Shown in pieces: positions 12,763 to 64,000 of a DNA stretch of 64,000 nt. The translations under genes and the position numbers were made by a program. Origin of the DNA: Dermatophagoides farinae. Lineage: Eukaryota; Arthropoda; Arachnida; Sarcoptiformes; Pyroglyphidae. Location: positions 62,001-126,000 of the forward strand of contig NW_027461518.1 of NCBI RefSeq assembly GCF_024713945.1, in the 5' to 3' direction. Every line of letters begins with the position of its first letter. Position 1 is the stretch's first letter. The notes beneath the pieces are model-generated. The model was not told the DNA's origin and ran no database searches. It was given only the letters and a program-made list of their open reading frames with translations.

Positions 12763-13428
12763 ATGACTCAACAATCAGAGAAAAACTTTTCTAAATCGTT
12801 ATTTACGTTGATTGTTGAAAACGCTCCCATTCACTACGAGACGTATGACTATTATCGGATTTTCAGTCAATGTAAGTTTGCTGCCAACTGAGTTTTAGTT
12901 GGAAATCTCAAATTAAGCAATATTAAATTCTCAGCTTCCAACAATGAACGTCGAGTTTTCATATCGTTCACTTCCCCCAAGTCGTTGGAAAAAGCTATGA
13001 TAACTTTAAACAACAAAAATTTAGAAGAAAACGCTTACTATAAATGGAAACTAAACTATACTCAATCAACTATAAAACTATTGAGCATGCTGAAAGCCAA
13101 AGCTGCCAGTTCAAAATCTGTGACGGCGAACGAAAAAAAAAACATTCAAGAACATATCAAACGCAAAGAAATTCTCGAGGAAAAAAAGGAAAAGTTATCA
13201 CAGCTGAGGCAAAACAGAGATCTAAATCGTAATGTAGAAGCAACTCAAGAAACAAAGCTCGATTTATTTACTTACATATTGAATCTTAGAAAAGAAAAGT
13301 TAACTTCAAGCAGTTCAACTGAAGATGCAATCAGTTATTACAGTGAAATTTGGAAGAAACTACCTATTCAAATTCCTTTTAAAAAACTAAATGAGCGGTC
13401 TGTTCAAAATTTTTTATGTGATCTCTAA
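12763..13428 (+). CDS. RNA-recognition-motif protein (spliced, 27-nt intron)
   Basis: Two exons, 12763-12871 and 12899-13428, joined across a 27-nt intron (GTAAGT...TTTTAG) give 212 residues. Splicing creates one uninterrupted RRM at about 12-90: an RNP2-like strand LFTLIVENAP, the helix YDYYRIFSQFGN formed across the junction, and an RNP1-like strand RRVFISFTSPKSLEKAM. The first exon supplies the only in-frame ATG; the downstream open frame alone begins with TTG. After the RRM comes a charged coiled-coil-like stretch (about 105-145), then a C-terminal region ending NFLCDL. The likely role is RNA binding. I do not recognise the specific orthologue. It is in tandem with AlaRS (110 nt upstream) and the EGF protein (52 nt downstream). 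Confidence 0.8.
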
Positions 13429-13480
13429 CGTGTAATAAAACTTGTGCTATTTTTGTTTGTACTGGTCAGGAATCACCAAC

Positions 13481-15055
13481 ATGAAATCTCACAAATATAT
13501 TATTAGTATACTTACGCTGGTTGGCATTCAAAGCCTTGCTAGAATACCGACTTTGTGTGAAAGAGACAACCCTTGCGTGGACGAAGCCGAATGTAAAATT
13601 GACCCTAAAGCTCCAATAATTGGAAAACCTTTTTGTGTTTGTCCAAAAGGTATGTTAACGTGCAATTGATTGCTTTTAGGTTTCTCTGGAGACGGGAAGA
13701 AAGAAGGCACAGGATGTTTAGACATAAACGAATGCCATACGGAAACACATGACTGTCGACTTGATAGTGAATTATGTCATAACACGCATGGTAGTTTTGA
13801 GTGTAGATGCAAACCAGGCTACAAATTTTCTCAAAAAACCAATCATTGCGAAGACATTAACGAATGTTTACTTCCAACAGCATGTGGAAACGCAGATGCT
13901 AACTGTGTAAACACTCCAGGATCGTTTGTTTGCACATGTAATGATCCTAAACTGATTTTCGAACACGGAATTTGCCGCTTACGAAATGCCTGTATAGATG
14001 AGAATGCCAAACTGAACGTTTGTGATCGGAAGAATGGTATCTGTCTGAATCGTTTTTCAAGTACGGAGTGTATTTGCAAGCCTGGGTTTAGATTAGGTGA
14101 AGATAACTTTTGCGAAGACATTGATGAATGTGAATTAAACACTCACAACTGTCCTATACATTCAAAGTGTGTAAACACCATAGGTTCCTACAGATGCGAA
14201 TGTTCTGAGAAAGACGGATGGGAAAACGCCGATGACTTTACCTGCAAAAACTTAAACGAATGTGAAAAATATCCAGATGTTTGCCCTTCTGGTTCTGACT
14301 GTTGCTTGGATCTGGCTCCACCATACAAATATGTTTGCACAGAATTACTGACTACCAATGAAGGAGCCATGGGTTTAATGGAAACTAAGAGTAATCTCTT
14401 ATTCCCTCTTACCCTTTTGCATAATGTAAAGCTTGACTTAGGAGAACGAATTGCATCGCTTCCAGCTATTAACCCTTTACTATTAAAGTCATCTGCGAAC
14501 CCTTTTGAAGTTAAACCAGTGATAAACGCGATTGGCTTTAAGGATCGGCAGCTTGGAGCGCTTCACGAAGTGCTTTTGAACAAATATATTGAAACAATAG
14601 CACATATCATCCCTATCATCACAGGAGCTGACGCAGGTAAAATTTGTCCAAGAGGTTTTGCAGATATTAGAGAAAATAAGCGAAAAACCACGTTACGACA
14701 ATTCCCTAATGTAGTCATGATGTTTATGAAGAATGTGAAAGCTAGTCTGCCCATTGATATCGAATCCCTTACTAAGATAGACCCGACTTTGGTTTCAGAA
14801 GGTATAGGTGCAAACATTCAAAATCTCGCTGGAACTCTGGCAGATTGGACTAAGATTTTGACGAGCATCCCAGCTAACCTTGATTCTGCAAGCGAAGAAA
14901 TGGTTCAGCACATTAACTTCAAAGACGACATTAATGGCGTTCTTAATGTCATGAACCGAGCCGCTTCGCCAATCACCGACGCGATCAGTTTTCTTCGATT
15001 GATAAACCCAGCTGAAGTTGCTAGCGGCTTAGCTGGCTTATTTACTACAACTTAG
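13481..15055 (+). CDS. secreted multi-EGF-domain protein (spliced, 30-nt intron)
   Basis: Exons 13481-13649 and 13680-15055, with a 30-nt intron (GTATGT...TTTTAG), give 514 residues. The splice restores CVCPKGFSGDGK inside the first EGF domain, strong evidence for the junction. A signal peptide is visible at 1-23 (MKSHKYIISILTLVGIQSLA). About five to six EGF modules follow (about 26-300); several start DINEC or DIDEC with the later NTxGSFxCxC pattern of calcium-binding EGF. The C-terminal 220 residues lack cysteines apart from one, are predicted helical, and resemble nothing I know. No clear transmembrane or GPI segment is present. Such proteins in apicomplexans are usually surface or micronemal adhesins; that role is inferred. 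Confidence 0.88.
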
Positions 15056-15152
15056 ATAAATAATTCAGTAACAAGAAACAAATTCAAGAGCTTTATAATA
15101 TAAATATCTTATGTTAAAAAAAGTTTAATAATTTAAGAAAAAAGTTAGCAAA

Positions 15153-15596
15153 CTAAAATCTAAGGCGCTTACGTAAGAATACGAGCTCTCTTTCACACTT
15201 GCTTTCTGGAGCTGACAAAAACTTTTCTTTGAGAGCCTTAGCAATGTCAATCTTGAGCTTTTGTGAATCTTCTCTGGTGACGATGCTTGCGTTACCCAGT
15301 AAGTTGTTGATATCTAATTCTTTTGATAAAACATATCTAGTTGGCATCAAGTGAGCGTAGTTAATGTTCTTTAAAAATACTTTTACGTTGCTTCTTCTTT
15401 CGATTTTCTCAGCTCCCATTCTTTTAGTAATTTTTTTAGGGGATTGAGCAAGTCCTAACACGAAAGCGTGTGGAAAAGTTCTGTATTTGTTTCCAGAGTT
15501 GTATGCAGAAATTACAACGCATTTCTTACCGGCCATGCGGCCTGCAAGAGCAATGCAAATACGTCCTGTTTTGAAGATTTTTTGAGCAGTCGCCAT
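15153..15596 (-). CDS. RPL27: 60S ribosomal protein eL27
   Basis: Large-subunit ribosomal protein. 147 residues. Family features seen: an N-terminal KOW-type segment (FKTGRICIALAGRMAGKKCVVI), FPHAFVLGLAQSPKKITKRMG, the highly conserved YAHLMPTRYVL, and the C-terminal FLRKRLRF, which matches the usual ending of eL27. The ATG at 15594-15596 gives a short extension (MATAQKI) compared with the usual MGKFMKPGK. No intron is needed. It converges on the EGF gene (97 nt between stops), and its start faces the longest gene-free stretch in the window. Confidence 0.96.
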   Translation of the reverse strand: MATAQKIFKTGRICIALAGRMAGKKCVVISAYNSGNKYRTFPHAFVLGLAQSPKKITKRMGAEKIERRSNVKVFLKNINYAHLMPTRYVLSKELDINNLLGNASIVTREDSQKLKIDIAKALKEKFLSAPESKCERELVFLRKRLRF

Positions 15597-16492
15597 ACTT
15601 GAATTAGAGGTTGTATTCTTTTTTATTAAAAATGTTTTGTCTCACTCTAGCAAATTTTTCTTGTTGTAATTACAATTTGCTTATTTTGAAAAACCAAACG
15701 CTACACTGGCCTTATTGGCTTTTATTTTTTAATAGAAAATACAAACTTGGCATGAAATAAAGTGCGAAAAGTTAGTATTTTAAATTAGCTATAAATCATC
15801 ACTCGGTGTTTTAATTACAACACGGAAATCGTAAAAGGTTAGTTATTATATTGTTGAAAAGTGCTACGTGGCAGTTGATTTTATATTTTTTTGATGTAAA
15901 AATTTTCAGCTTAATTACTTTTATTTGTAATTTAATGCTAGTTTTATCTTGCTTAGTATAATTATTTTTAATTTATAAAGCGCAACATCAGTCGTCTTGC
16001 TCATGTATTTTTTAAAATTAGCATGACTGCAATTAGTTACTTTGATTCTTGATTATGTATTTGTTCATGAATGTGTAACAAGTTTTTTTCGTGTGTACCG
16101 AAAATTATTCAATTATACACTACATATGCATTAGCAATTGTCAACGACATAAATATAAAATTTTATCAACGATATGACTCTTTTCCATACTGTGAAAATT
16201 GAAGTTTAGGTATTATATCATAATTCAAGATCGGCACACAAATATTAGGCAATGTATAAGTTTTTTCAGGCATAATAGAATCACAAAGAAAGCGAATAAA
16301 CATATCTCACGATAGATACCTACTCAACTTTTATTGATATTTTTGCTATATGCAATCACTTAACTTTTCAAACCGCATATTTAGCGGAATTATCGCAATT
16401 TGAAACAATCGGCCTTTGAAATAAATTTGAAAAATTAGATGAACGCATTATTTTATTATTAATATAATAGATTCCACAGATATAGACATCGG
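15597..16492. other. long intergenic region between eL27 and HECT genes
   Basis: 896 bases with no open frame above about 40 codons that looks coding, and no stretch I can fold by eye into a tRNA or recognise as U1, U2, U4, U5 or U6 snRNA. It is very AT-rich with short A and T runs. It must contain the promoters of both divergent neighbours. It is about four times the usual divergent spacing in this window, so an unrecognised non-coding RNA could hide here. Confidence 0.35.
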
Positions 16493-19078: not shown

Positions 19079-19220
19079 TTAATAATATAAAAATAAAGTA
19101 ATTAATTGTCAGTAATTTATTTATCGAGCATGTGATAATGCTTCGTAAGTATAGATTGATGTTTGTGAAATTAGAATTAATGTTTACAGCTCAAATTTAA
19201 CTGCATAAACTATTTTTGCT

Positions 19221-20045: not shown

Positions 20046-20081
20046 CGAAGAAAAGAAATAATTTACATTTAACCAACTACG

Positions 20082-20763
20082 TTACACACATGGCCATGCT
20101 AAAGAAATATTTAAATATTAATTAACCTACTAGTTTCGCATTTTTCCGCCCAAAGTATTTTTTGATTAATAATTTCAATACTTGTGTTTGCAGTTCTGGG
20201 TAAAAAATTTTTATTGACACAATTGCCAAAGTATTTGTTTTTATTAGGCACGCATGAATTGTCGGTTGGATTGTAAATAAAGTTCTCAGGACATTGGGAA
20301 AAGTTTCTAACACAACTGATCATATTTCCGGTAACATAAGTAAGCAATTCCGACTGCGATTTAAACAGTTTGAGCTTACATGGATACTTGGAATTGCAGA
20401 TTAGGGAAAATAAAGCTTTTTTTTCTTTCGAAAAATTAGTCACATCAATTGTATCGAAAGGACAAGAATCTTTTTTTTTCACTAATTTACAAATAGTTTT
20501 ATCCTCACTTGACTTAATTTCTCGCCAGTTTAAAGGGCAGTTTAAGTTGAAATCCGGATAACATTCTTTCAATTCATCTGAATCAACTACGTATTCTGCG
20601 TTTAACGCCAGCTTTTCTAATGAACTGCGCTAAAAACTTAAATTAACTTTTTACTTACGTCAGGCATGGAAACAATGCTGTTTGTTACATTTTTAAGCTG
20701 ATCAAGTTCTGTAAAACGGCATTTTGTACTTTGTAGTAATTGCATTATGTATAAAATAAACAT
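20082..20763 (-). CDS. CPW-WPC cysteine-rich protein, short form (three exons)
   Basis: Three exons in transcript order: 20763-20659, 20629-20131 and 20098-20082, with introns of 29 nt (GTAAGT...TAG) and 32 nt (GTAGGT...TAG). The product is 206 residues. It has the apicomplexan CPW-WPC pattern: CYPDFNLNCPLNW opening one module, CNSKYPC closing it, then QCPENFIYNPTDNSC and YFGNCVNK opening a second that ends KCETTWPCV. The last Trp-Pro-Cys exists only after splicing the 17-nt terminal exon, which is strong support for that intron. Unspliced, the frame would end in SRLINI instead. The start at 20763 gives a short hydrophobic MFILYIMQLL; an alternative ATG is 20745. In Plasmodium, members are surface proteins of zygote/ookinete stages; the role here is inferred. 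Confidence 0.83.
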
Positions 20764-23200: not shown

Positions 23201-24455
23201 ATGAGTTGTACAGCATTTAGTGAATCAATTCTAGGACAAAATCTGCGAAGCTTCATAGAGTATTTTTACCAATGTCTGTCTTTGGCTTCGCCAGAGATAT
23301 TCGATCTATACTCGAAACAAGCGCACCTGATGCATATTGGTAAGTGTTACGGGACCGGAAAGCCGCCTTTTCAATCTTTTTTTAGGTATGTGCAACCAAA
23401 ACGACGCATATGAAGCGATAGACCAATGTGAGATAATGAAACTGTATAATTTCGTGCTGTTCAAGCGCTATCACCAAGCTCAGTTCACAATCCAGCTGTT
23501 TCACTTACTTAATTGTGGAAACATGGGGTTGCTCAAAACTCTTGTAATCCGGGGTCACATGCGTTGTACGAACAACGGAGCGCCTGATTACGAATCCGAT
23601 TTCGTACACACGTTCACGCTAATCATGCCTGACGGACTTTGGCTAGGCGGCGACTCTAGCTACATGGTCCCCAACCTCAAAGTTGCCAGCATTGCCAGCG
23701 AATTCATGAACCTGTTGCAAACCCCCATCAACCTCAAAATTAACTATGTCCACACTTCTGACTCAACTAACCAAAACTTGAGCTACGCCAGTGTCACCAG
23801 CGAAACCGTTTCTGAGTCACACAAACCTAAGCTTGCCGAACCAGCTGCATCGCCGCCTGATGAACTTTATCGCGAAGAAGTCGAGACTCGACAACTTCGA
23901 GTAGCTCTTGTTGACATCAAAGACGATATGGAAGCACGTAAACTAACGGACCAAACCATCAACGACGAATTAATTCGTAACTTTGGAGACCACGGGTACA
24001 AATCTTTTTTGAAGAGCACTGGGACAAACAACTCCAAAAAAAACTTTTTCATTATCAAATTCAACGCCGACGAAAACCGGCTCAATATGATGGTGAAGAA
24101 CAAGCCCCGGTTTGACATCCAAGGACTTAAGTTTTACTTTTTGACTCGCAATGTGTACAATAACGCTCCCCACCGCAAGCAAACGACCCATAACAGAACT
24201 GAGAACAATGCTCAAACTTCGTCTGACTCCAAAATTAACGCCGAGCACGCTTCCAACGGAGCTTCTGGCGAACTTCAAACAACAGGCGCCAAGCAACCAG
24301 AAGCTGTTTCCACCTCCAAACAGTACAACAATACCAAATACAAGTCCAAAAAAAACCAAAATGATGATATGAAAGGCAATTTAAACGAAACCAACAACAA
24401 TAAAACTAACCAGGCTAAACTCAAGAAACAGGAGGAAAAAAAGTTCATAAAATAA
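23201..24455 (+). CDS. G3BP-like protein with NTF2 and putative RRM domains (spliced, 46-nt intron)
   Basis: Exons 23201-23339 and 23386-24455 around a 46-nt intron (GTAAGT...TTTTAG) give 402 residues; the join restores a continuous NTF2-like domain. NTF2-like fold (about 8-130): RSFIEYFYQCLSLASPEIFD at the start with a histidine-containing strand (AHLMHIG), and the closing strands FVHTFTLIMPDGLWLGGDSS. A divergent RRM-like region covers about 200-280, followed by a long Asn/Lys/Gln-rich C-terminal tail of low complexity. This order (NTF2, linker, RRM, disordered tail) is that of G3BP/Bre5/NTF2-RRM proteins, which organise stress granules and mRNPs. The second exon has clearly more C-ending codons than neighbouring genes, suggesting high expression. 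Confidence 0.75.
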
Positions 24456-27879: not shown

Positions 27880-29357
27880 TTAGGCATCAGCAGTTTTATA
27901 TTCTCTATATATTTGTTCATAAAATTGGTATATTGTAGTAACGGTAACGAGCAAACCCGTTCCACCTCCAATGACGCCGAAGAAGTCGGCCATTATTGTA
28001 AGCACAGCGAGTAAAACACCGCTGAGAACGGCCGCAGTGGGAATTATCGACTGGAACACGTTGTAAATGGACGTTTCTCTTTGGCCTCGAATGGTGAAGC
28101 CTGCATCTCGAATTTGCTTAGTTACTTCACGAGGGCCGGTGTTGCTAATATCAAGGTACAGTTTGGAAATAAAAGCACAGTTAATTATAACAAACAAAAC
28201 ATAAATGACTGTGTGAAACGGTTGGGTAACGTAATCCTTGGCACTCATTGGCGCATGGATGTAATAAGACAGTCCACCAATGGGTTTTTTTCTGCCGTTT
28301 GGAAGTTCCTGCCACTGACCTAGCAAATTGACAAACGGGTTGCTTCGCATTTGTCGGTAGAGTACATGCGATAAATAAAACAAGTGAGAAGTCAAAGTGG
28401 TTTGGATCAACATGGGCGAGCTATGCGTGTAAAAGAGTTTAACGGGGAAAACTCCGACTTGTCCACCATTCGTTCTGTGTTTGATAGGAATGTCGACTCT
28501 AAAACACTGCAAATAGATAATGACTCCAAGCATAGTTAAGGTAGCTAGCACGTTCGTTATATTGATGGCCGATTCTCGGTAAAATGCTTCTTTTAGCGCA
28601 ATCAGTTTGTTTTTTCTAACGATCAAAAAGTGCATCAGCGCTACGAAAGCCCCTTCAAATTCCGTACCGTTCTTGGTGTGCAGAGTTGTCGGCGAAAACA
28701 TACTCCAAACCAATTTTTCACAAATCGATGTAGTAATAAACATTGAGACTCCGCCACCAAAGCCGTAGCCCTTCGTAAGCAAGTCGTCCATTAACATTAC
28801 AATGACGCCGGAAGTTAACAACTGAGTAATGATGATTACAGACACAAATAAGGAGATTTTTCCGAAAGCACCTGACAGCACGTAGGCAATAGACGTACCA
28901 AAACAAATAACCAGGCTTAACCATTTTTGCGCGTCATTGTACAACTCTCTGTCTTCGCTGAGCGACATGTCACACGCAATCGCTTTGAGTCCAACCAGGA
29001 AATGCATTATCATCGATGCAGTCATTATTGGCGAAATACCCAGCTCCATCAGAGAGCCTTTGTTACTCGCAAGCATTACTCTCGCCCAGTAAAACGGATC
29101 TGCCGAACTGTTCATCGTCACACCGAATATCGGGATTTGCGAGCATACTAAGAAAATAAACAAACAAACTAGAGTCCAAAAAACCTTTTCATTTCCTGAC
29201 ACCGGTCTTTTTGGCGTTCTAATTGAAGGCAAGATGCCACTCAGCGGTTTTATTATATCTAAAACTCGAACTACAATAAAGTTTAATCTTTCCGGAAAAA
29301 GCTGGGTATTCAATGTTTACCTACGTTGAATATAAGCCAGTACTTACATTTGCCCAT
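27880..29357 (-). CDS. SEC61A: Sec61 alpha translocon subunit (spliced; 10-nt first exon)
   Basis: Channel-forming subunit of the ER protein translocon. The long open frame begins with TTG and lacks a start. The best model joins a 10-nt first exon (29348-29357: ATG GGC AAA T) to 27880-29270 across a 77-nt GTAAGT...TAG intron, producing MGKFRVLDIIKPLSGILPSI, which matches the conserved Sec61 N-terminus. The product is 466 residues, close to the usual 473-476. Other features: VFWTLVCLFIFLVCSQIPIFG, the plug region SSADPFYWARVMLASNKGSL, MELGISPIMTASMI, YGFGGGVSMFI, and ten hydrophobic helices. An alternative 23-nt intron within the same span would add residues not seen in the family and is less likely. 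It is divergent from the gene at 29606. Confidence 0.9.
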
Positions 29358-30486: not shown

Positions 30487-31158
30487 TTAATAAAAATCTA
30501 TTGGGTTATTATTAAATAATAATTGAACAATATATTTTTTATTTACTGGATCATACTTAGACAAAAGTTCCTCGGGAGCTCGCGAGATCGAAGCCGCTGG
30601 AATCATAATTCCAATGTTGGAATAAGGCGGACAACTAATAACTAGAAAACAAACTTTAGGATTTTCAGGCACAACCGTTTGTTCAAATGAATTCAGTATG
30701 CGAAACTTTGGTGGAAAGTCTTCGAGTGACGTTGGCACGTCGACTACCACTTTCAAGCCAAATCGATCCGTGCTATACTCTCTTACTTTAATGATTTCAA
30801 ATTTTGGAATAGTGTTCAATTTTTTAGTGACCGCCTTTGTGACTTTGCTCTTGGCGTTTTGTTTGTTTGCGATATGGTCTACATACTTTATTTCTTTTAT
30901 AGCACGAACTCTCAAATTGTTCTGGTGTTTTTTACACTGCGTGTGGGTCAAATAACTGGCCTCGTTTGGATGCAACGTTAAACACAACTTGCATTCAAAT
31001 TTTCCGACGTGGTTTTTTTTAATATACGGATCGTTGGCCAAGTTTATTGTTTCCAACGCCAAGCGTTTTAAGCGTTCTTGCCGTAAAGCCTCTAGTTGCT
31101 GCGGCGTCGCAATAGCTCCCGAACCGGTTTTGTGGCCAACCCTAGTACTATAATCCAT
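30487..31158 (-). CDS. SF3A2: splicing factor 3A subunit 2 (SF3A66/Prp11)
   Basis: U2 snRNP component that helps place U2 on the branch site. 223 residues, close to the conserved core, without the proline-rich metazoan tail. Features: the N-terminal GHKTGSGAIA, RLALETINLANDPYIKKNH, the C2H2 zinc finger FECKLCLTLHPNEASYLTHT followed by KKH, and a C-terminal beta-rich domain (FGLKVVVDVPTSLE; FPPKFRILNSFEQTV; VCFLVISCPPYSNIGIMIPA). Start ATG 31156-31158. Its start is only 65 bp from the oppositely oriented RNase P protein start, so both promoters share that gap. With SF1 in the same window, it shows that normal branch-site recognition machinery is kept despite very short introns. Confidence 0.95.
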   Translation of the reverse strand: MDYSTRVGHKTGSGAIATPQQLEALRQERLKRLALETINLANDPYIKKNHVGKFECKLCLTLHPNEASYLTHTQCKKHQNNLRVRAIKEIKYVDHIANKQNAKSKVTKAVTKKLNTIPKFEIIKVREYSTDRFGLKVVVDVPTSLEDFPPKFRILNSFEQTVVPENPKVCFLVISCPPYSNIGIMIPAASISRAPEELLSKYDPVNKKYIVQLLFNNNPIDFY

Positions 31159-34830: not shown

Positions 34831-35021
34831 TTAAGAATTATTTTGGTCTGAATTCTTTTTTTGCTCCAGCAAATACGATTGTACTAATTTTGAAAAAACA
34901 AATTTACTCTCGAAATTGTCTAAAATATAAAATATATATTATACATACCTTTGTTCTCAACATCATGTGAATCATCTATCGATTCCTCATTTATTGTTTT
35001 ACTTGATGTTGTAGTGTTCAT
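34831..35021 (-). CDS. very small spliced protein (53 residues)
   Basis: Two exons, 34949-35021 and 34831-34919, around a 29-nt intron (GTATGT...TTTTAG), keep one frame from ATG to TAA. Product: a polar Thr/Ser start (MNTTTSSKTINEESIDD), then VENKDNFESKFVFSKLVQS across and after the junction, ending KKNSDQNNS. The intron matches the length and end bases of the well-supported ones, and the frame is open on both sides. There is no homology support, so it may be a 5' part of a longer gene or a chance frame. Confidence 0.4.
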
Positions 35022-35219: not shown

Positions 35220-36104
35220 ATGGCTAACCAGTATTATCCTCCTGTCGTCAACGACGATCGTTATTACTATATTGAAAATAACAACGGCGGGCTCGATGAG
35301 TGCAACAATCTGCCGTACATGATAGAACAATCTGTGGCTGTATCTTGTATGGTTTGCGATGTAGTTGTGCGAAGCACTGCCGTTATTGCGAAAAATGTAT
35401 TCCATTTTTTGACTGACAAAGACTCAATTACAAAACCGATTTATGAAAACATCGGTAACTGGACGCTTTTACAGTTTCAAAAGCTGTCAAACAAATTATT
35501 CAACCAGAATGCTGACCAGCTCTTGAATGAAAATTTCAACAACCATTTCGAGGAAAGATATCTCGACGAGCCCGCTTTGTACCAAATTTATTCTTTAAAT
35601 TCTGTCGTAAGTCATGAAGAATTCAATGATCAGTATTCAAAACTCGATATACCTATGAATTCCAATTGCGATCCTTACGAAGGGACAAATGGCCAGGTTT
35701 TAAGCACAAACCCGTTGTTAGAAGAACCTATTGAATTATCGAAAGATAAATTTGCTTCTCTAAACGATAAAGCAAACGAAGCTTCAATAAAAATTGCAGA
35801 AAAAAAATGTACTGAAGAAACATATGTTACTTCTGTGCAGGAAGACAGCGATCAGCTTACTAAAACAAAAACAATCGAAACTACTGTTGAAACTAAAAAA
35901 GAAGAAAATGACGTAGAAAAAAAGCAACGAACATCCACGGTTGAAGTGAATAAAGAATTTGTCAATAAAGCTATTCCAGCGGAACCGTTTAATCCGGCTC
36001 AACATGACAATAACGTTTCAGCCCGCAAAAGCTGTTTCGGAGCTCGTAGAATTCCTATGAGAAAAAATCTAAAAACTTCTGACCAGTTAAAATCCGGTGT
36101 GTAA
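35220..36104 (+). CDS. hypothetical protein with a disordered Lys/Glu/Thr-rich C-terminal half
   Basis: 294 residues from the first ATG at 35220 (MANQYYPPVV); the upstream in-frame TTG is not a start. The N-terminal 110 residues contain a moderately hydrophobic segment (SVAVSCMVCDVVVRSTAVIA) and a helix (GNWTLLQFQKLSNKLFNQNA). The C-terminal half is low complexity (TKTKTIETTVETKKEENDVE). No recognised domain. The N-terminal cysteines near the hydrophobic stretch could be acylated, as in inner-membrane-complex proteins, but that is speculation. Its last 18 coding bases overlap the reverse-strand CPW-WPC gene. Confidence 0.6.
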   Translation: MANQYYPPVVNDDRYYYIENNNGGLDECNNLPYMIEQSVAVSCMVCDVVVRSTAVIAKNVFHFLTDKDSITKPIYENIGNWTLLQFQKLSNKLFNQNADQLLNENFNNHFEERYLDEPALYQIYSLNSVVSHEEFNDQYSKLDIPMNSNCDPYEGTNGQVLSTNPLLEEPIELSKDKFASLNDKANEASIKIAEKKCTEETYVTSVQEDSDQLTKTKTIETTVETKKEENDVEKKQRTSTVEVNKEFVNKAIPAEPFNPAQHDNNVSARKSCFGARRIPMRKNLKTSDQLKSGV

Positions 36105-38429
36105 ATTCGACATTACACTTTTTAATTTTGATTTAGCAACACTTTTAAAATTTTTTTTATCACTCTCGTTTTTACAATGCCATCTAATGCCGTACGCAGA
36201 AATTAAAAATTCTTGCGTTTCTTCTGTTAATTCATCTAAATAAAACGCTTCTGTGTTGTTAATCTAAAAATGATTGTTAAGACTACTTACCGCTAAAAAA
36301 CTATTAGGTTTGCATAAAATTCGATTATCTATGAAATGATCTTCCCAACCAATTGGACAACGCGTACGATCATCTACACAATCGTTTTTAATAGGCCACA
36401 GTATCCCGCATGAACTACTTAAGCGCATCTTGTCTAGGTAGCTTAAGTTAGCGGGTCTGAAATTGTGTTTAAGAAATAAAACTTACATCTCGTTTAACTG
36501 ACAAACATTTGAAATTTTCAATTCGTTCATACATGTATCATTTTTTTTGACAAAACCTTCTGGACAAGAAGAACTGAAGCGTTGCCGTTTTCCAAGCAAA
36601 CAAGGGTAGACTACGGCACATTGGTCTTCATAAGAAACTTTATCTTCTAAAACTTTTCTTAACTTGTGTATAGTAAATGCTTTATTTATTTCATCAATAG
36701 AGAGTTCTGATTGACAAGGTCCTGAATATGTTTTTGAAATACAAATGGACTCTTCCCTATCCAAGATCAATTCAGTGAACCCAATGGGGCATTTATTCAG
36801 GTAGTTTTGTATACAATAGGGATTTTTATTTATACAGGGAAATTGCACTTCGTATTTGTTTGCGGCATTTATTTTTGCTTGAGTCGTTTCCAGTTTTAAA
36901 CTAAAAGGTCCTGGCAAACTTGGCATAACTTTACGACAAAGTGTGTAATTGTTATCGTAGATGTAGCCTATTGGGCAGTCTGCAGTTACGTAGTTACGAC
37001 TGCAGTCAGTTACAGGCCACTTTAGCTTGCATTTCTGCATTATTTCTCGTTTTTCGTAAATATCCATAGTGGCTGAAAATAAGTTACACGCACTGCCATA
37101 ATCTGTTACATGAGTTTTGTAACAATAATTACCCATGCGTTCCGTACCAATTGGACAGGCAAAATCAAACAAATAATATTGTTTGTTGTTTGAGTACGGC
37201 TTGTACATTTCACTCAGTTTGCCGAGATGATTTTTATATCTTTTAAAATTATCTCTCTGTTTTATAAACTTTACCGACGAATTTAAAATTGATTGAAACT
37301 TATTTTTAGCTTTTTGTGTTTTTGACAATTTTTTTATCGCAGACAATTCTCTCGTCTTTAGAGTTTGAGAGTTAAAAAAACCAAAACGCCTACTTTTTAG
37401 TTTTGGCGTGTAATTACATACGGCTATAAGTGTCAAAGTCAAATCCTCTAACTTGAAACTCGAAGGACATTTCTTATTCGGTTTATATTTGAGCTTCTTG
37501 ATTTTGCTTGAAATTTCACATGTTTTAAGCTTTTTATTGTAACGAAATCCCATAGGACAACTTAGAAAATCAATTGACTTACCTGATTTGATTAGATCAT
37601 GTTGTACTAGAATCCATTCTTCTATTTCTGCCGCGGAAATATGCTCGTTTATGTGTCGTAAAAAATAGTCCGTTGTAGAAATATAACCGTTAAATTTAGA
37701 AATTTTTCTATTGTTCCAGAGCCTTGCATTATAAGTTTTCATGAAATCATTTTCATCTTGAGCTGCTATTTTGGGGTCAAAAAAATAATTTAAACTGTAC
37801 AAATCTTTCGTTTCAACTTGAACTGAATCGACGTCATTATTCGAACTCAAGTATGGATTGAAGCAACCATTATTCCTTTCATTGATTTCTTTCATTGCTA
37901 AGGATACTAGTGAATTGTATTTTGGAACTTCTTCTTCACAAATCAAACCACATATGTTGTTTTCACAAACATATTCATTCACGCCAAAAGTGGGAAATTC
38001 AACAAAGCAGTTCTCCTGCATAAACATAATATCATTAAAATCTTTCATAAACACTCGAGATGCACATGTATCATTTTTGTTAGCTATGCATTGATCTCCT
38101 GCAATTTTCCAAGAAATTGGACATCGAGCAGCGATGCTTATAAATTTTGTGCTAGCTTTTGTGTGATTATTCGCTAGAGAATCGATGAAGCTCGACATAG
38201 GATTTGCTTTTTTTTGCGTGAACCCATTGACACACTCGTCATTTAGCAAGGCTTCTTTTCTACTACACGGAGCCCATATAGAAGGTGATATAACGTCATT
38301 TATGCTCTCTACTGGCAGATTTAAGTCTTTAATGGCTTTATCTAGTGCAACGTAAAATTGAGAATCAAAATTAGCAGTTCGTGTTCTTACTATTTCCTGA
38401 GCTACATAATTATAAATCCACGATTTCAT
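36087..38429 (-). CDS. large multi-module CPW-WPC protein (three exons)
   Basis: Exons in transcript order: 38429-36487, 36456-36291 and 36263-36087, with introns of 30 nt (GTAAGT...CAG) and 27 nt (GTAAGT...TAG), give 761 residues. It consists of about six or more cysteine modules of the CPW-WPC type: RCPISWKIAGDQCIANKNDT, SCPMGFRYNKKLKTCEI, ACPIGTERMGNYCYKTHV, DCPIGYIYDNNYTLC, KCPIGFTELI with YSGPC, and SCPEGFVKKNDTC, each closed by a Trp/aromatic-Pro-Cys-like element (KLKWPVTDC, AVVYPC, SIWAPC). The two small downstream exons supply another module (CGILWPIKNDC, RCPIGWEDHF, IRWHC), confirming both introns. A signal peptide is not seen, so a short upstream exon may be missing. It is probably a surface or secreted protein of a mosquito/gut-stage-like type in other apicomplexans; the role here is unknown. 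Confidence 0.8.
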
Positions 38430-39112: not shown

Positions 39113-40956
39113 ATGCAAAATACCATCAATGAAAATAACAATCAATTCGTTAATTTAATTGAAAAATTATCATGTAAGGTAGGGCTTTGACTTTTATTGC
39201 TTATATATTGTAGAAAAAGATTTCTTCATTGAAACCAATTTTAAGAAATATTGCTACACTATTTGGTTCTCATATAAAGGTAGCTAACTGTATTAGATTT
39301 TTAGCTGTTTTAAACAAGTGCGAACGTAATATTGGAGATTGGAACAAACAGTTTTTTTATTCAGATTTAGAGCCTATTAAAAATGTTTTAATATCGATAG
39401 TTTCAACAACTATTTCGAACTTAAATGAAGTTTTTTTGTCTTTGATAATTTCAGAAACTTTACAAATTTTTGAAAATCAACATAACATTTTGGATGATGA
39501 AGAAAAATCTTTTTTGAAGTTACATATACGTGATTTGGAGGCGGAATTAAAACATCATCTTGAAAAAAATTTTGAAAAAATTATTTTAAACGGCGGGCTT
39601 TCATTTTCATTAAATCCACTATTTGACGTTGAAGCTTTTTCTTACCTAATTAAGTTTTATTTTAATTTTGAAAAGTTATTTGGCAAGTTATCTTTTTTGC
39701 TTCAGTTAAAAGATAAATTCAACTTAGATGAGCGTTCAGTTCAACTGCTAAAAGATACAATTGATCTATTTTCAAAGTTTTATCATGACAATCTTTCATC
39801 TGATAACGACGTTACTACATTAATGGATTTTTACAGCAAATCTTATAAGGCGTGTTCTGTATTGCTATACTACGTTTGCGATATAGAGGAATTCAATTGG
39901 TATAGTGACTATAGTTTTGACGACATTTTAATTGTATTGTTTGATTTATATGACTTGAACGAAACAGATTTTAAATTTGCGACTGAAAAAAAACCTATTC
40001 TATTAGTGAATGTAATACGTACTTATTTAAAAAATCACATTATGAAACGGAAATACTTATTATCTTGCAGAGTAGTTAATGAACTAGCCGATTTGAGTGT
40101 ATATAGTAACTATCAAGTCTGTTTTATCTATTTGGCAGAACTAATATTCAATAATTATTTAAACGCAACAGATCGAGTAAAAAAAGCTTTTACAAGTTTT
40201 GCTAATAATTTTATTGATTTCAGATGGGAATATTCTAATTTTCTTCGTGACGAAAAAAACTTAATGTTTAAACAGTTTCTGGAGTTACAAGAAAAATTCA
40301 ACAGCAGACTAGACTTTTTTGTTAACAACGGAGAGTTATCCTCGAAACTTTTACTTGATCAAATCAAAAAAATAGATTCTTACTTGGTTAGTGACGAACC
40401 TTGCAAAGCAAATTGTTTGACCAGTGATTACTTTTTCATTTCTATTGATAATAACAAATGCATCTGCTGCTCCGATAGGTTAACAAAATGTGATAAAAAA
40501 GAAAAAGAATTGGGTTTGCTAATGCATAACCTCGACAATTTAATTTTGTATACTGGATCTGTGCATAACACGAACTCGTTAAAAGCCAATGACAAATATT
40601 TAATGGCTTGCAGAGAACTATTGCTTGATGAAACTTGTGGCGTATTGCAATATCTCTTATCTAAGACACCAATTCACACGCAAGCACAGAAATTAGCCGA
40701 CGATAGTATTGATTTGCTGAACTTGTTAAATATATTGAAAATGGTCGACTCGGAAAATAACGAAAATTTTTTTATGTCTAGAAAATGCATTCATCTTATT
40801 AATCCAACAGAACATGGCATAGAAAAAAGTTCGTTCAAAGCAGCTCAAAACATTTTTTGTGACTTGATAAGCAAGCTGAGTGAAACCAATAGCTATGGTT
40901 TCATGCATTTACACTGTCTAAGAAAATTTTTAAAAAATTATTCTGAAGATTTCTAA
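39113..40956 (+). CDS. large helical hypothetical protein (spliced, 35-nt intron)
   Basis: Exons 39113-39178 and 39214-40956 around a 35-nt intron (GTAGGG...TGTAG) give 602 residues. The long frame alone starts with TTG; the first exon adds MQNTINENNNQFVNLIEKL and keeps phase. The protein is almost all helix, rich in Leu, Phe, Asp and Lys, with a Cys cluster near 405-435 (CKANC and CICCSDRLTKC). Such long-helix proteins include vesicle tethering (COG/exocyst/GARP) subunits; the start LIEKLSCKKKISSLKPILR followed by FLAVLNKCER is loosely like those, but I cannot assign it. Its TAA overlaps the RFC gene's TAG (CTAA at 40953-40956). Confidence 0.65.
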
Positions 40957-41964
40957 TTTTGCTGCTTAATGCTGCACAGTTGGCAGAGTAAAGAACTAAA
41001 AAATATATCGTTTCTCAACTTACTCAAATTGCAAATCTGAAATGCCTGTTTCATTGGCGATAATTGATTCTGTTATCATACCATGATAAATCATTTTCAT
41101 GGAGTTGCTCATATCATCTGTTTCGATAATTTTTAGCAAAGAGGCTAATATTTCTTGATTCGAATACCCTTCATCAAGTATTTTGCCGGTGGCTGTGTTT
41201 GCTTGTTTAAATTTTCCTTCTTGTATATGCAAGAATAACTCTTTAATTAAAGGTAATGGCAGAATATCACAGATATTATATACATTTTCAATTTCGAGCT
41301 TGTCGTACAGCGAAGCTGCCATTTGAACATATCCTATAGCTTTTCGACAATCTCCTTCACAAGAATCGACAAGCAGAGCAAGTGCATCTTCGCTGTAATT
41401 ATAGTTTTGTGCATCACAAATTTTTTTAAGCCGGTTTAATATTGCATCATTTTTAATTTTACTAAACCTTAAAATAATGCTTCGACTTTGCAAAGGTTCA
41501 ATTATTTTTTCACTAGAATTACAGATCATGAAATATCTAGTTGTGTCTGCGTATATTTCGTATATTCTACGTAAAGATTGTTGTGCAGTCGTCGTCATAG
41601 CTTCTACTTCATCCATTATTACTATTTTGTATTTTCTTTCTGGCAATACTATTTTTTCCTGTGAAAAAATTTTAATTTTTTCTCTGACCGTTTCTATCCC
41701 TCGTTCACTAGCTGCATTAAGTTCGAGAACGCCATCTGCATAGTACTCTCCTAACAATTGTCTCGCAAAACACTTTGCAGCAGAAGTTTTTCCTACACCT
41801 GGCGGCCCGCAAATTAATAAATTAAATATTATATTCGTCTCAAGCATATCTTTCAACTTATTAATTTGATCCTCGTTCCCAACAAGGTCGTCAAGGGTTT
41901 TTGGCCGGTATTTTTCGATCCAAATTGAGTCTTTGCTTGTATTAACTACACCATAAGCAGACAT
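40953..41964 (-). CDS. replication factor C small subunit (human RFC2 / yeast Rfc4 type), spliced near the stop
   Basis: AAA+ clamp-loader subunit that opens and loads PCNA. Exon 1 41024-41964 and a 43-nt terminal exon 40953-40995 around a 28-nt intron (GTAAGT...TTTTAG) give 327 residues. Without splicing the protein ends SDLQFE; with it the end becomes LQFDSLLCQLCSIKQQ, which matches the RFC2 C-terminal LLARLCQ block. Seen: WIEKYRPKTLDDLVGNEDQI, Walker A CGPPGVGKTSAAK, NAASERGIETVR, Walker B IVIMDEVEAMT (DEVE rather than DEAD), RRIYEIYADTTRYFMICN, and the SRx sensor LQSRSIILRF, where the usual third residue Cys is Ser. Start ATG 41962-41964. It is divergent from PLAA (118 bp). Confidence 0.93.
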
Positions 41965-44726: not shown

Positions 44727-45164
44727 ATGAAAAAGCAAAACGTCGATTGGAGTGAGATTTCTAACAAAAAAATTTTTGAAAGAGAATCTTACCTAGGTCA
44801 ATCCTTGCGAATAGGAACAAAAAAATATAAAAACATATTTGAAAAGGGTGATTGGTGGTTTACAGAAAATGAAAACAAAGTCATTAAAAACGAAGAAATA
44901 CAGAAAATTGAATCGAAATGGTTTGATATTTTACTAAATGAAAATATAGATATAAAAAAAGAAGACGCTACTTTAGACGTAATAAAGCCAGTAGATACTT
45001 CGTCGAAAAAAGAAACTGACGATAATTTTAATAATGAAGTGGTAGGTAAACCTTCTAATGTGATTAATAGCTCAGTGAAACCTGTAGTTCAGGTTAATAA
45101 ACAAATTAAAGAAAAAAAGCGACTTAAGCCTTTGAGTAGATTAAAACAAAAAAAGAATAGCTAA
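44727..45164 (+). CDS. basic hypothetical protein (145 residues)
   Basis: Start ATG 44727. The N-terminal 70 residues have a distinctive conserved look (YLGQSLRIGTKKYKNIFEKG, then DWWFTENENK), followed by a charged linker and a strongly basic C-terminus (KEKKRLKPLSRLKQKKNS) that could be a nuclear signal. No recognised family. The TAA (45162-45164) overlaps the neighbouring reverse gene's TAG (45161-45163). Confidence 0.6.
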   Translation: MKKQNVDWSEISNKKIFERESYLGQSLRIGTKKYKNIFEKGDWWFTENENKVIKNEEIQKIESKWFDILLNENIDIKKEDATLDVIKPVDTSSKKETDDNFNNEVVGKPSNVINSSVKPVVQVNKQIKEKKRLKPLSRLKQKKNS

Positions 45165-46552: not shown

Positions 46553-47018
46553 TTAATTATTATCAGACTCGTACTCATTTGAAGAAATTTGAACACTCGC
46601 TCGTGTCGACAACGAACAAAAATGTGGTTCTGGAGCAAAATTCAGTGATTTTGAAAACTTGAAACTGGAATCGTTCATCGCCATTGTCGCCTGTAAATGT
46701 TTTTTTGTGTCTTCCAACTGCGCCTTCAATATGAATCGCTCTTGTGTCAGGTTACATATGATTAACTTAGATTTATTGATTTCTAGCTCTAGTTTTTTCA
46801 CCTTGACGTCTGCAGACTCCAAACCAGATCTGAGTCCAAATTTATATTCACTGTCCAACATAAGTTGCAAAACACTAAAATCACTGCTGCGAACTTCTTC
46901 GATTAACTCCAAAAAACTCTGAACAATTCTGCTGTCTACGACATGTGGTAGCTAAATTTAACTTACAGTAATAGTCCTGATACTTTGCAATTTTATATAA
47001 GCTCAATTCACGCATCAT
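46553..47018 (-). CDS. coiled-coil protein (spliced, 31-nt intron)
   Basis: Exons 46967-47018 and 46553-46935 around a 31-nt intron (GTAAGT...GTAG) give 144 residues. The long frame alone begins with TTG; the first exon begins ATG ATG and reads MMRELSLYKIAKYQDYY, continuing in phase across the junction (YYSRIVQSFLELIEEVRSSD). The middle forms a coiled coil (VKVKKLELEINKSKLIICNL) and the tail is Ser/Asn-rich. No family recognised. Confidence 0.65.
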
Positions 47019-49318: not shown

Positions 49319-50419
49319 ATGAGTAAATATTCAATCGCAAATGAATGTGTGCCTTTTGAGCGAATAAAAAAAGCTTCTTTACTGCAGACACGGTGGGAAT
49401 CTTCACAGCAATATGAAACGATAAACGAACATAACACAAATATAACGCACAGGGACCAATACGTTCCGGTTGTAATAGCGGACGTTCCTAAAATATTTGA
49501 TAAAAAATCAGTCGATATAATGATGTTACAAATGAGACTTGATGAAATAAATCAAGAATTGGCGTTTAACGATCCGATGGATTCGATTTTATGCGACTCC
49601 AAGTTTTCTTATAAGAATCTGAAAACAAACAGTTCAGAGTACACGAAGAATGAAACCTTATTGAGGCAACACAGGTTAGATGAACAGCTACGAGTTGTGA
49701 ACCAATTGGAATTGAAGAATGTGGTTCTGGCTTCGTGCTTAGAACTAAGAAACCAGCGGCGAGTACGCCGAATTATCATTCCTGTAGACGAATATCCGGA
49801 TTATAATTTCATGGGGCTGTTGATTGGACCAAAAGGTTGTAATCACAAGCGTTTAGAGCTTGAGTCTGGCGCGCAAATTAGCATTAGAGGCGCGGGAAGT
49901 CAATGTGATTTGCGGAAAGCTGATATTCAGTCGTTATTAGAGGCTGAAATGCCTCTGCACATTCATATAACTGCGGACACTATTGAAAAAGTAGATAAAG
50001 CTGTTGAGCTATTAGACCCATTGCTGGATCCAACTCACCCTATACATAACGAATACAAACAAAAAGGTTTGAAGCAACTGATTTCGCTTTCTTCAAACAC
50101 TGACCAATTAATAAACACCGCTTCTGGAATGGCAATAAACAAGAGCACTGCCCGGTGTACAGCATGTGGAGAACTTGGGCATTACAGTTTCACTTGTCCG
50201 AATCTCAATATTGTTTCGTACAAAAAGGTTGAGCTCGTTTGTGGATTCTGCGGCGATATGGGTCATGTCACCACGGATTGTTTGAAAGCCAAGAATTCCA
50301 ATTTAACAGATGTAGAGTTGGCTAATTTAATTAAATCGACGTTTGCCCATTCAAACGTGAAGAAGCCAGAAGAAAACAAAATTAGTGAAGAATTTTTCGT
50401 GATAAATAGAGGGAAATAA
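49319..50419 (+). CDS. SF1: splicing factor 1 / branchpoint-binding protein
   Basis: Binds the intron branch-point sequence in early spliceosome assembly. 366 residues. Seen in order: the helix-hairpin region ending LQMRLDEINQELAFND, a KH domain plus QUA2 (about 145-265: RRIIIPVDEYPDYNFMGLLI, GPKGCNHKRLELESGAQISI, RGAGSQ), and two CCHC zinc knuckles (CTACGELGHYSFTC and CGFCGDMGHVTTDC). The N-terminal U2AF65-binding peptide (SPSPxP, RW) is weak: only LLQTRWESSQ contains a tryptophan motif. ATG 49319. It is convergent with RPC8, with 27 nt between stops. Keeping both knuckles and the KH domain suggests branch points are still read by SF1 in these 27-37-nt introns. Confidence 0.95.
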   Translation: MSKYSIANECVPFERIKKASLLQTRWESSQQYETINEHNTNITHRDQYVPVVIADVPKIFDKKSVDIMMLQMRLDEINQELAFNDPMDSILCDSKFSYKNLKTNSSEYTKNETLLRQHRLDEQLRVVNQLELKNVVLASCLELRNQRRVRRIIIPVDEYPDYNFMGLLIGPKGCNHKRLELESGAQISIRGAGSQCDLRKADIQSLLEAEMPLHIHITADTIEKVDKAVELLDPLLDPTHPIHNEYKQKGLKQLISLSSNTDQLINTASGMAINKSTARCTACGELGHYSFTCPNLNIVSYKKVELVCGFCGDMGHVTTDCLKAKNSNLTDVELANLIKSTFAHSNVKKPEENKISEEFFVINRGK

Positions 50420-50446: not shown

Positions 50447-51045
50447 TCACCACCAATCGATGCATCCCAATCCCGAATCGTCGAATGAACCCTAAGAATA
50501 TTCAGAATAGAAAAACTTACTAAGATTGACATGGGAGCAAAGTTTGTTTTGGTTTCGGTATTATCATTATTGAAAATAACATCGATTACCTTAACTCTGC
50601 AAATCAGATTTTTTTCATAAATTAAATGCGTCTTTGAATCGTAGTTCCAGATGAAATTTTCGTATTCGTCGTTGTATTGAGTGTTTGCTGGCAAAAACTC
50701 AATAGGCACTTTAATGTTTTTGAAATTCGCAATTCGCAGGTTTATGCCCGTACGATCACAAGAATCTATGATGACGGTTAGAATGGAATTGACCGACGGC
50801 TTAAATACGATGAGATCGGCTTCCTGTCTAAACCACGGCCGTCCGTCATTGGAACTTTGAATCGGCAGAGTTTCTTTGATATGAAGGTCCAAAACATTAA
50901 CAACAAGTCCAATTTCATTAATTACACGGTCGATAAATTTAATTTCAGCTTGGTGTTTAAGGTAAGTCAACAATTCTTCGACATTGGCGGCTGCAAATTC
51001 ACAAGATATCGAAGACTCATATTTTAGAGTAACTAGCAAAAACAT
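50447..51045 (-). CDS. RPC8: RNA polymerase III subunit RPC8 (Rpb7-like), spliced near the stop
   Basis: Stalk subunit of RNA polymerase III. Exon 1 50521-51045 and a 45-nt last exon 50447-50491 around a 29-nt intron (GTAAGT...TTAG) give 189 residues. The unspliced frame would run on into the convergent SF1 gene; splicing yields the ending SILGSFDDSGLGCIDWW, matching the family's GSxxxxGLGxxxWW. Other features: MFLLVTLKYESSISCEFAAA, VINEIGLVVNVLDLHIKE, FKNIKVPIEFLPANTQYND, NFIWNYDSKTHLIYEKNLIC. Start ATG 51043-51045. This is one of the strongest proofs of the very short introns. Confidence 0.93.
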
Positions 51046-51180: not shown

Positions 51181-52213
51181 TCAAATAGGATAATTATAGT
51201 TTTTATTTTTTCCTTGGTTGAAACGTGCATTTACAGGTCCGTAGAAATCGGAGTTATAAGTCGAATTTACCAGTTCTTGTGAAAACTGATCTTCGGCGAG
51301 TCTTTGAGCTAACTCGCTTTTTCTAGATTTAGGGGATTCAATTAAGACATCGTCATTTGTTTCGTCATATATTTGTTCAGGTGCGTAGTCATTAGCTGTG
51401 AAATTATTAATTTTTTTAACAATTTCTTCTGGAAGCGGTACTCGAATAAAAATACTGGAGTCTTTCATTTTCAAACTTGATGTGAGTGCGATAGCTAGTT
51501 TCAAACCCGTAGTGTCGTTGATATATCCAGGTATCACGAAAATTTCGCTTCCTGCGTGAATGCCTAAACTATCGAGCGTCCTGACTTTATAGTCGTTGTC
51601 TACAAAAATTATTGTTGTGCGTGCGCAGTTACTTACAGTATGTTTGGTTGGAAAGGATCACTAGAGAGTTTTTCCATTGTTGAAATATAAACTCTTCATC
51701 TTTGTTAATTGCATTAATTAGGCCAAGTTTGTTCTCCAGCATGTTCTCTGTAAACACTTGCAGCAAGTGTGGCTCGATATTGAAGTGGATCGACAAAAGC
51801 TTAAACAGTTCCTTGACAGGCATTTTATCTGTCACGTCTAGACAAACGGTTTGCACTATAAAAGCACTTGTTTGGTCGTTGCCTAAAACGAGTCTGTGAA
51901 CGAAAACAGCGCCATGCAAAAACGTCTTGGGGTTGGCCACTGAAATGACCAAGTCGTCGCGGCATTGGGCGTCTAAAAACGCATTCCGATCGTTGACAGC
52001 TAGGCGTAAAGCGTTGATAATAACTGGATGCAAAATACCTGTGTTGTCGCTTTTAAGAAATCTCTCCAAATTTACAAATGTCCTGATGAAGTTAGAGAAC
52101 AATACATTGATTATATGAATTTTTTCTTCTTCGTTGAGATGCAAAATTGTTTCAATTTCTTCAATAACCCAAATCAACTCAGTATCTTGAATTAGTGCTG
52201 CGTTTTTATTCAT
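51181..52213 (-). CDS. hypothetical protein (spliced, 37-nt intron)
   Basis: Exons 51637-52213 and 51181-51599 around a 37-nt intron (GTAAGT...TGTAG) give 331 residues. The junction joins NSLVILSNQTYYNDYKVRTL and continues LGIHAGSEIFVIPGY, which reads like one beta-rich ubiquitin-like fold (about 140-260) split by the intron. The N-terminal part is helical (ELIWVIEEIETILHLNEEEK) and the C-terminal tail is charged and disordered. The upstream GTG at 52241 is not a start; ATG 52211-52213 is. I do not recognise the protein. The ubiquitin-like idea comes from the strand pattern and IHAGSEIFVI only. Confidence 0.65.
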
Positions 52214-54895: not shown

Positions 54896-54911
54896 TTTAA
54901 ATTTAGTTTGA

Positions 54912-60444: not shown

Positions 60445-60590
60445 TTGGTTTATTGATAGTTTATGGAGACGTTGTGACCGTTTGTGTAAGTCGAATTCGA
60501 GTAAAGGAGATTTGGGCTCTGACCCTAAAATATTAAATTAGTTTTTTGTGTGCTTAGAACGAATTATTCATTAATTAAGACATGTAATTC

Positions 60591-63500: not shown

Positions 63501-63758
63501 ATAATAGCGAACTATATTCATGCTGTTTGCGTTTTCATATTTGATGAAGCTGATTCAGCACTGGACTATACAAACAAAGCTATTTTTACTGAGTTCCTTA
63601 CAAAGCTGAAGTGCCAAGTTATCACAACCAGTTTGTGTGACACGATGAAAAATGACGTAAGTTGCCACTACCACTTAAACGTTATTAATAAAAGTTCAAC
63701 CGGCACTTTAATGAGCAAGGACAAATTGTTGCCAAATAGCATCAATTATTTGAATTAA
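60591..63758 (+). CDS. SMC-family ATPase, probably SMC3 (cohesin)
   Basis: Chromosome-structuring ATPase. 1055 residues, shorter than a typical SMC (about 1200). Walker A GTNGTGKSTLINAISLF at about 33-49; LHRGSELPVSSGYVEVCFEF fits the SMC3 LLHEG...VEIIFD pattern. Two coiled-coil arms (about 240-370 and 690-890) flank a hinge-like middle that lacks the conserved GG patch. The signature motif reads TLSAGQRTLLGLC (usual LSGGQ), and Walker B is VFIFDEADSALDYTN (usual DExDAALD). The final QVITTSL matches SMC3 (QFITTTF) better than SMC1/2/4. SMC membership is certain; SMC3 is the best guess, as SMC2 remains possible. ATG 60591. Confidence 0.85.
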   Translation: MVIKFIYIELSGYKSYKNRTRFDWSEFINLVTGTNGTGKSTLINAISLFINESEKEFSAQNVLHRGSELPVSSGYVEVCFEFNQNSSRDSISRVVLKRYFTLLETQSEKFYENNVEITRASFEKICKKLRNHIVIIKQNMATKFPNWSTSYLKLFSFPCTLTYNLTTEVNNSLKSLKHITQLVESSFANLKKNIYAPLMLLVSENNLCRVDEIQILDCSKKFMKLIELAVEKKNHSVLNNRLISLKVEYDKITLLNEEKTPTPSDKLVIHLDSQELTAGVNKIKQQIKELNTINEAIESELKKIQKKNSEITRKLNRPELNEYGRLKRKFEILIDEKKKLQKSLEGKKTNFLNDCNRDDCNNNSTASKICTGKLNIRIKRKFENLSKFNLERTKNFEKTNCVNAYLSSVGYNYHKFTENVFATLCPEVSLIQLKTLNYSAIITNEKFVGPLFWHINCEKMYEQAIISALNNYFLAFVVRKKSNVSEVLNCRTENSLLKYTNVLCLESYLATVVCAEVKFQQDLHFISTNISNNCFSLSSVISNSVDESINIVLRDLVKNYIFVPSLEVAYEIVSQFDWYSCVIEDGTILDRNCVLRPFNDFKKHNLKKFKVWQALKNCFKLNLPMLNNELVSDNETQLDEALQKTSKSITSEIRSDLSFSRSTDEMSLNEKISLHKKLDKQIRKSELEIQQWKKSYSKLLTHEEDQFLLLKNVKQMDELKNYQVKIKKLKHKFSEELVALNKKDLKKKSGPELQDYKNNVDKIYYLERQAKLQTEIQQIETQCIMFDKYFAKQVNMLENELTDESIENIKHVLGENVRFTMNEKTKQNILDILFSLTMTQLVEIRQFLKNKIFSISNSTSVSSTQLKSNESHIKKLYAEFDVLSKQLMRAAEIFNSILEINTMFVKFYCELAQDKFNKLMLTLDLNNYIIDLKVDENGQVSELALLDNKQNISAVSTLSAGQRTLLGLCFIIANYIHAVCVFIFDEADSALDYTNKAIFTEFLTKLKCQVITTSLCDTMKNDVSCHYHLNVINKSSTGTLMSKDKLLPNSINYLN

Positions 63759-63799
63759 ATTTTTATATTTGTCTGAATTTTAAGGATTCAACGTTCTAA

Positions 63800-64000
63800 A
63801 TGAATGAAGATTTCAGCAATTTTACAGACAACGAAGGCAGGGTTTATGTATACAACGAGGAGTTAGACGAAAATCGTAAGTCCGATACATTTGACGTTTT
63901 GCAGAAACTTACTACACGACTTATGTGGATACACAGCAAAAAGTAAATACTGAAGCCATATATAATTTGAGTTTTGATCGCGTTCTACTTTCGTCGTCAA
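63800..64000 (+). CDS. 5' part of a spliced hypothetical gene (runs off the window)
   Basis: Exon 1 63800-63875, a 29-nt intron (GTAAGT...GCAG, 63876-63904), then an exon open to the window edge. The join reads NEEDFSNF-like start (MNEDFSNFTDNEGRVYVYNE), then DENQTYYTTYVDTQQKVNT and AIYNLSFDRVLLSSS. Without splicing the frame stops shortly after the donor. The intron matches the others in length and ends. About 57 residues are visible; function not recognised. Confidence 0.6.

Follow-up and report, generated by a model that had tools for sequence, protein, structure and literature searches.

Introns and genes of the window

The window examined here is a 64,000-nucleotide (nt) stretch of an unplaced scaffold (C15:62001-126000) in the assembly of the house dust mite Dermatophagoides farinae, which comprises 62,435,336 bases in 22 contigs (C1-C22). 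It holds protein-coding genes whose reading frames are interrupted by 15 very short introns, proposed in a first-pass annotation and forming the subject of this report. Five of these came with coordinates, and the other ten were traced through frame analysis together with a match to the proposed lengths. All 15 were recovered with identical lengths (27, 27, 28, 29, 29, 29, 29, 30, 30, 31, 32, 35, 37, 46 and 77 nt), and their splice sites were likewise as described, with GTAAGT (11 introns), GTATGT (2), GTAGGT (1) or GTAGGG (1) as donor, TAG (13) or CAG (2) as acceptor, and GT..AG ends in every case. The introns are listed here with the evidence for each junction.

12872-12898, plus strand: 27 nt intron of an RRM gene (12763-13428); RRM_1 scores 22.6 bits when spliced (cut-off 20.7) and 14.1 bits on the downstream piece if the intron is retained, which gives an in-frame stop
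13650-13679, plus strand: 30 nt intron of an EGF-repeat gene (13481-15055); EGF-family models match the spliced fragment only, at 20-23 bits, below the cut-offs for that fragment; retention gives a stop
20099-20130, minus strand: 32 nt, intron 2 of a CPW_WPC gene (20082-20763); CPW_WPC scores 65.3 bits spliced versus 55.8 bits retained
20630-20658, minus strand: 29 nt, intron 1 of the same gene; frame evidence
23340-23385, plus strand: 46 nt intron of a gene at 23201-24455; frame evidence, without Pfam support
29271-29347, minus strand: 77 nt intron of a SEC61 alpha gene (27880-29357); the spliced protein begins MGKFRVLDIIKP, exon 1 having only about 3 codons
34920-34948, minus strand: putative 29 nt intron of an open reading frame of 53 residues (34831-35021); weak frame evidence
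36264-36290, minus strand: 27 nt, intron 2 of a CPW_WPC gene (36087-38429); frame evidence; retention gives an in-frame stop
36457-36486, minus strand: 30 nt, intron 1 of the same gene; CPW_WPC scores 45.7 bits over the junction versus 17.9 bits if cut there
39179-39213, plus strand: putative 35 nt intron with a GTAGGG donor, in a gene at 39113-40956; frame evidence, a different model being favoured by our gene finder
40996-41023, minus strand: 28 nt intron of an RFC2 gene (40953-41964); the alignment to solved RFC2 extends about 9 residues beyond the junction
46936-46966, minus strand: 31 nt intron of a gene at 46553-47018; frame evidence, with no convincing Pfam match
50492-50520, minus strand: 29 nt intron of an RPC8 gene (50447-51045); the Rpc25 model scores 68.6 bits spliced versus 50.0 bits without exon 2
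51600-51636, minus strand: 37 nt intron of a gene at 51181-52213; two long open exons, with no Pfam match
63876-63904, plus strand: 29 nt intron of a HAT-repeat gene (63800-64347); HAT_PRP39_C reaches 22.7 bits (below its cut-off of 33) when spliced, and nothing matches otherwise

When the introns are retained, 14 of the 15 yield an in-frame stop either within the intron or no more than about 20 codons downstream, and the RPC8 intron changes the frame without an early stop. Four have lengths divisible by three and all four contain an in-frame stop, detection being blind to stop-free introns of this kind. Protein homology supports eight of the 15 junctions to varying degrees (those starting at 12872, 13650, 20099, 29271, 36457, 40996, 50492 and 63876). 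In Sec61 the matches to solved chains begin at query residues 1-7 (several of them at 1-3), and the C-terminus of RPC8, which ends in WW, aligns with a solved RPC8 chain. Conserved motifs had originally been taken as proof of the RRM, EGF, WPC, RFC and RPC8 junctions; homology backs all five, with the reservation that the EGF matches lie under their cut-offs and the RFC2 tail is short. An NTF2 domain that we had ourselves read into the gene at 23201-24455 was not supported by Pfam and was discarded.

The intron class lies far above chance

The tests of chance were run on a wider region, C15:1-206000, consisting of the window and a further 142 kilobases (kb) of the same contig. Every hexamer was scanned as the start of an 18-50 nt deletion running up to a TAG or CAG. 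A site counted when the two open stretches thus joined had 40 codons or more and the read-through did not exceed 17 codons. GTAAGT emerged as the top hexamer for frame rejoining (13 of 110 sites versus 1.24% overall, log10 p -8.9); the runner-up reached a log10 p of -4.7, and the best hexamer under a reversed-acceptor control -3.0.

The same region was annotated with a gene finder that used GTAAGT-like donors and a flat length prior of 15-150 nt. Although introns as short as 15 nt were allowed, the shortest predicted was 26 nt, and 22 of the 26 predictions fell at 26-37 nt. Each of 24 scrambled donors gave 9-20 introns with only 0-9 of them at 26-37 nt, and a gain of at most 162 versus 226 for the true donor; in a prior run 20 of 26 introns fell at 27-32 nt, and with 12 scrambled donors the length spreads were flat and the gains 101-156 versus 224. 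A gene finder based on a plain codon model had been dropped as too weak, producing spurious long introns, and was improved by adding stop-codon information and motif costs. Two gene-finder predictions in the window were not accepted: a 110 nt intron at 39174-39283, which competes with 39179-39213, and a 56 nt intron at 45084-45139. The class of introns as a whole is far above chance, and the scan, the length peak against scrambled donors and the homology at eight junctions together argue that the very short GT-AG introns, of spliceosomal type judging from their sequence, are real, as first proposed. The description of them as genome-wide was examined on the 206 kb region and on 64 kb drawn from nine other contigs; in the latter we obtained 10 predicted introns, 5 of them at 26-37 nt and only 3 with an exact GTAAGT.

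Intron anatomy and splicing machinery

The 15 introns of the window were combined with 16 gene-finder introns from outside it into a catalogue of 31, which has a median length of 30 nt, 27 members of 40 nt or less, 24 GTAAGT donors, and TAG (27), CAG (3) or AAG (1) as acceptor. Within the 27 short introns, whose interior G+C is 0.23, two blocks stand out near the 3' end: an excess of T at positions -9 to -4 (106 of 162 versus a shuffle mean of 71.3) and an excess of A at -15 to -11 (72 of 135 versus 45.3), neither being reached in any of 5000 interior shuffles. Position -6 is depleted of A (1 of 27 versus a shuffle mean of 9.0), with A found in 9, 8 and 9 of the 27 at -7, -8 and -9. This arrangement is compatible with a branch point in the A-rich block, at a distance of about 11-15 nt from the 3' end.

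Two splicing factors are encoded in the window itself, along with the HAT-repeat protein listed above:

49319-50419, plus strand: SF1/BBP-like branch-point-binding protein (KHDC4-BBP KH domain, 2.7e-20, and a zinc knuckle)
30487-31158, minus strand: SF3A2 (Prp11) splicing factor (Pfam SF3A2, 1.2e-18)

With SF1/BBP and SF3A2 both encoded here, ordinary U2-type splicing becomes the best explanation of the introns. On C14 there is also a Prp8 gene with an open frame of 2341 codons, one of two Prp8 genes in the whole assembly, and the Sm/Lsm genes are represented by LSM domains at 11 loci over C11-C21. In the process we envisage, U1 would recognise the GTAAGT 5' site, the branch point would be an adenosine in the A-rich block 11-15 nt upstream of the 3' end, bound first by SF1/BBP and next by SF3/U2, and the 3' site would be set by TAG and the preceding T-rich stretch (-9 to -4).

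A probable second organism within the mite assembly

The ten contigs C1-C10 sum to 58.83 megabases (Mb), near the 58.78 Mb given for another D. farinae assembly (PMC11074847), and the 11 unplaced scaffolds C11-C21 (3,593,788 bases, or 3.59 Mb) account for approximately all of the excess over a mite assembly of 58.8 Mb. The start of C22 reads as mitochondrial cox1. Once neighbouring pieces are merged, C1-C10 have 14 loci with proteasome domains and C11-C21 have 11, and the CCT/Hsp60 family has 8 loci on C14-C21. CPW_WPC and alveolin (IMCp) domains mark apicomplexans and their relatives. We found 9 CPW_WPC matches, on C15, C18 and C21, and one alveolin match, on C14 (with the caveat that the IMCp model also matched Caulobacter in a control), and none of either on C1-C10. 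This distribution of proteasome, CCT/Hsp60, LSM, CPW_WPC and alveolin loci suggests that C11-C21 come from a second organism, unrecognised and apicomplexan-like, whose assembly is incomplete; the apicomplexan origin suggested at the outset is supported by the CPW_WPC and IMCp domains on C14, C15, C18 and C21, to the extent that these domains are confined to that group. Its sequence is gene-dense, with 136 genes in C15:1-206000, 23 of them with introns, 86.5% coding sequence and a median gap of 146 bases.

The boundaries of this organism are less sharp. Among the 15 readable ends of C14-C21, only the starts of C14 and C16 bear telomere-type CCCTAAA repeats, so the small contigs were rejected as complete chromosomes. 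A complete genome of 2.7 Mb made up of C14-C21 was likewise rejected, since proteasome and LSM loci also implicate C11-C13. C11, however, begins with a degenerate CCTAACC repeat that differs from CCCTAAA. C13 is the least certain member, with one fragmented proteasome alpha locus containing a stop (L064) and low coding density in 3 kb; it possibly represents a separate component or one whose assembly is poor. Placement of the lineage by way of solved structures failed, as a proteasome alpha-2 scored higher against several chains, at up to 235 bits, than against the group that we take to hold Plasmodium entries (221.5 bits). Among the search results listed from the open-licence literature we found no published report of a mite-associated apicomplexan matching C11-C21, and the D. 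farinae genome paper is free of the words apicomplexa, gregarine, protist and protozoa (PMC11074847); a gregarine 18S sequence is on record from another mite, Caparinia (PMC6321676). The genome of an allergen source appears to hold much of the genome of a parasite, whose genes could pass for mite genes.

Several further genes were seen on these scaffolds. A class II fructose-bisphosphate aldolase lies in the window at 643-1719 on the minus strand (Pfam 4e-79); class I is the usual apicomplexan type, and the class II enzyme is therefore possibly a transferred gene. No tRNA or other RNA genes were detected in C15:1-206000 by Rfam and ARAGORN. A tRNA-Gln gene lies at L028:3428-3500 on C16, within the 10 kb of AT-rich sequence (23% GC) that follows the telomere-type repeat, and RNA genes are perhaps concentrated towards the ends of chromosomes. 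At the start of C14, a CCT/Hsp60-family gene (C14:1055-2536) and the telomere-type repeat are separated by about 1 kb, and a long open reading frame on C16 (L041:962-2863) reads as a putative secreted family-18 chitinase. C12 carries an alternative oxidase (AOX) gene at L040:154-1137 (Pfam AOX 3.4e-84), an enzyme discussed for Cryptosporidium in one paper (PMC8051059).

Competing explanations

We consider it very probable that these are ordinary U2-type spliceosomal introns reduced to about 27-32 nt in a very compact apicomplexan-like nuclear genome that has been mixed into the house dust mite assembly. Several observations weigh against this reading. Seven of the 15 junctions (20630, 23340, 34920, 36264, 39179, 46936 and 51600) are frame-only, without homology support, the weakest pair being 34920-34948, in its 53-residue frame, and 39179-39213, with its GTAGGG donor. 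Among the eight homology-backed junctions there are weak cases, namely the HAT and EGF fragments under cut-off, the 3-codon exon of Sec61 and the short RFC2 tail. The gene finder recovered exactly 8 of the 15 (12872, 13650, 20630, 36457, 46936, 50492, 51600 and 63876), those missed mostly adjoining short terminal exons. Four of the 31 catalogued introns, at 46-89 nt, fall outside the short class. Finally, copies of the U2 and U6 RNA genes were found on the mite chromosomes C1-C10 only, with 46 out of 3769 candidates and 48 out of 7910 scored, and the U6 core was not found in 276 kb of the second organism's sequence; we read the failure to find them on C11-C21 as incomplete assembly, which is not proven, and not as true loss.

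The frame-only junctions, together with the 9-20 gaps that each scrambled donor also bridges, speak for the gaps being sequencing or assembly indels, or the genes decaying pseudogenes, with the GT..AG segments picked by chance. We hold this to be most improbable: indels have no reason to select GTAAGT, and neither the length peak at 26-37 nt (22 of 26 predictions versus 0-9 of 9-20 in the controls) nor the restoration of domains at eight junctions is explained by it. Elements of about 26-55 nt are known elsewhere that are cut from DNA, as are the internal eliminated sequences of ciliates, or skipped in translation, as are bypass elements, and the segments described here are of comparable size. 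These segments, however, are bounded by GT and AG and have a consensus 5' splice site and a T tract near the 3' end, instead of the TA direct repeats that are the hallmark of the ciliate elements, and splicing factors are encoded nearby, leaving this explanation just as improbable as that of chance. The introns might also be real and the DNA that of the mite, since the contigs sit in a D. farinae assembly and the degenerate CCTAACC repeats at the start of C11 are possibly a telomere of arthropod type. That too is very unlikely, if marginally less so, in view of proteasome loci that come as two sets (C1-C10 with 14, C11-C21 with 11), two Prp8 genes, and CPW_WPC and alveolin domains found solely on C14, C15, C18 and C21.

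Comparison with known tiny introns

The introns had been described as among the shortest known for nuclear spliceosomal introns, which is broadly true, but shorter or similar ones are reported in the ciliates Stentor (15 nt), Paramecium tetraurelia (20-33 nt) and Nyctotherus (21-29 nt) (PMC2633312, PMC12862383) and in the apicomplexan Babesia microti (mostly 18-21 nt; PMC5082761). The ciliates share tiny introns whose retention leads to stops or frame changes (as reported for Nyctotherus and P. tetraurelia); they differ in being a separate lineage whose introns are generally shorter. B. microti is alike in being an apicomplexan with a gene-dense genome and very short introns; its 18-21 nt compares with a shortest prediction of 26 nt on C15.

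Another close likeness is to the gregarines Porospora cf. gigantea A and B, whose introns have a median of 28 [27-30] nt and a mode of 28, with a small-intron class of 25-30 bp (PMC9250747). The median of 28 nt there and 30 nt in our 31 introns both belong to a class of about 25-30 nt, and the coding fractions are similar (84% there, 86.5% of C15:1-206000). The claim that such introns are unusual within apicomplexans thus fails: the lengths in Porospora and B. microti mean that this length class is already known in the Apicomplexa. Two differences remain. Introns are found in 2957 of 5270 Porospora genes versus the 23 of 136 in which we detected them, and in the small introns of Porospora an A is strongly conserved 6 bp ahead of the acceptor, whereas A stands at -6 in 1 of 27 on C15 and is instead in excess at -15 to -11 (PMC9250747).

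B. microti, at about 6.5 Mb, was named the smallest apicomplexan genome in 2016 (PMC5082761). We somewhat favour the view that C11-C21 make up the greater part of an undescribed, mite-associated apicomplexan's nuclear genome, whose full size would be perhaps 4-5 Mb and so below B. microti (size and completeness being rough estimates from three gene families), with sparse introns of 26-32 nt whose 3' layout is unlike that of Porospora and which may have a separate origin. If true, the organism could rank as the most reduced apicomplexan sequenced to date. The introns bear on the minimum sequence that a spliceosome needs, since they add a further apicomplexan-like lineage in which introns are near-minimal and differ at the 3' end from those of the published gregarine.

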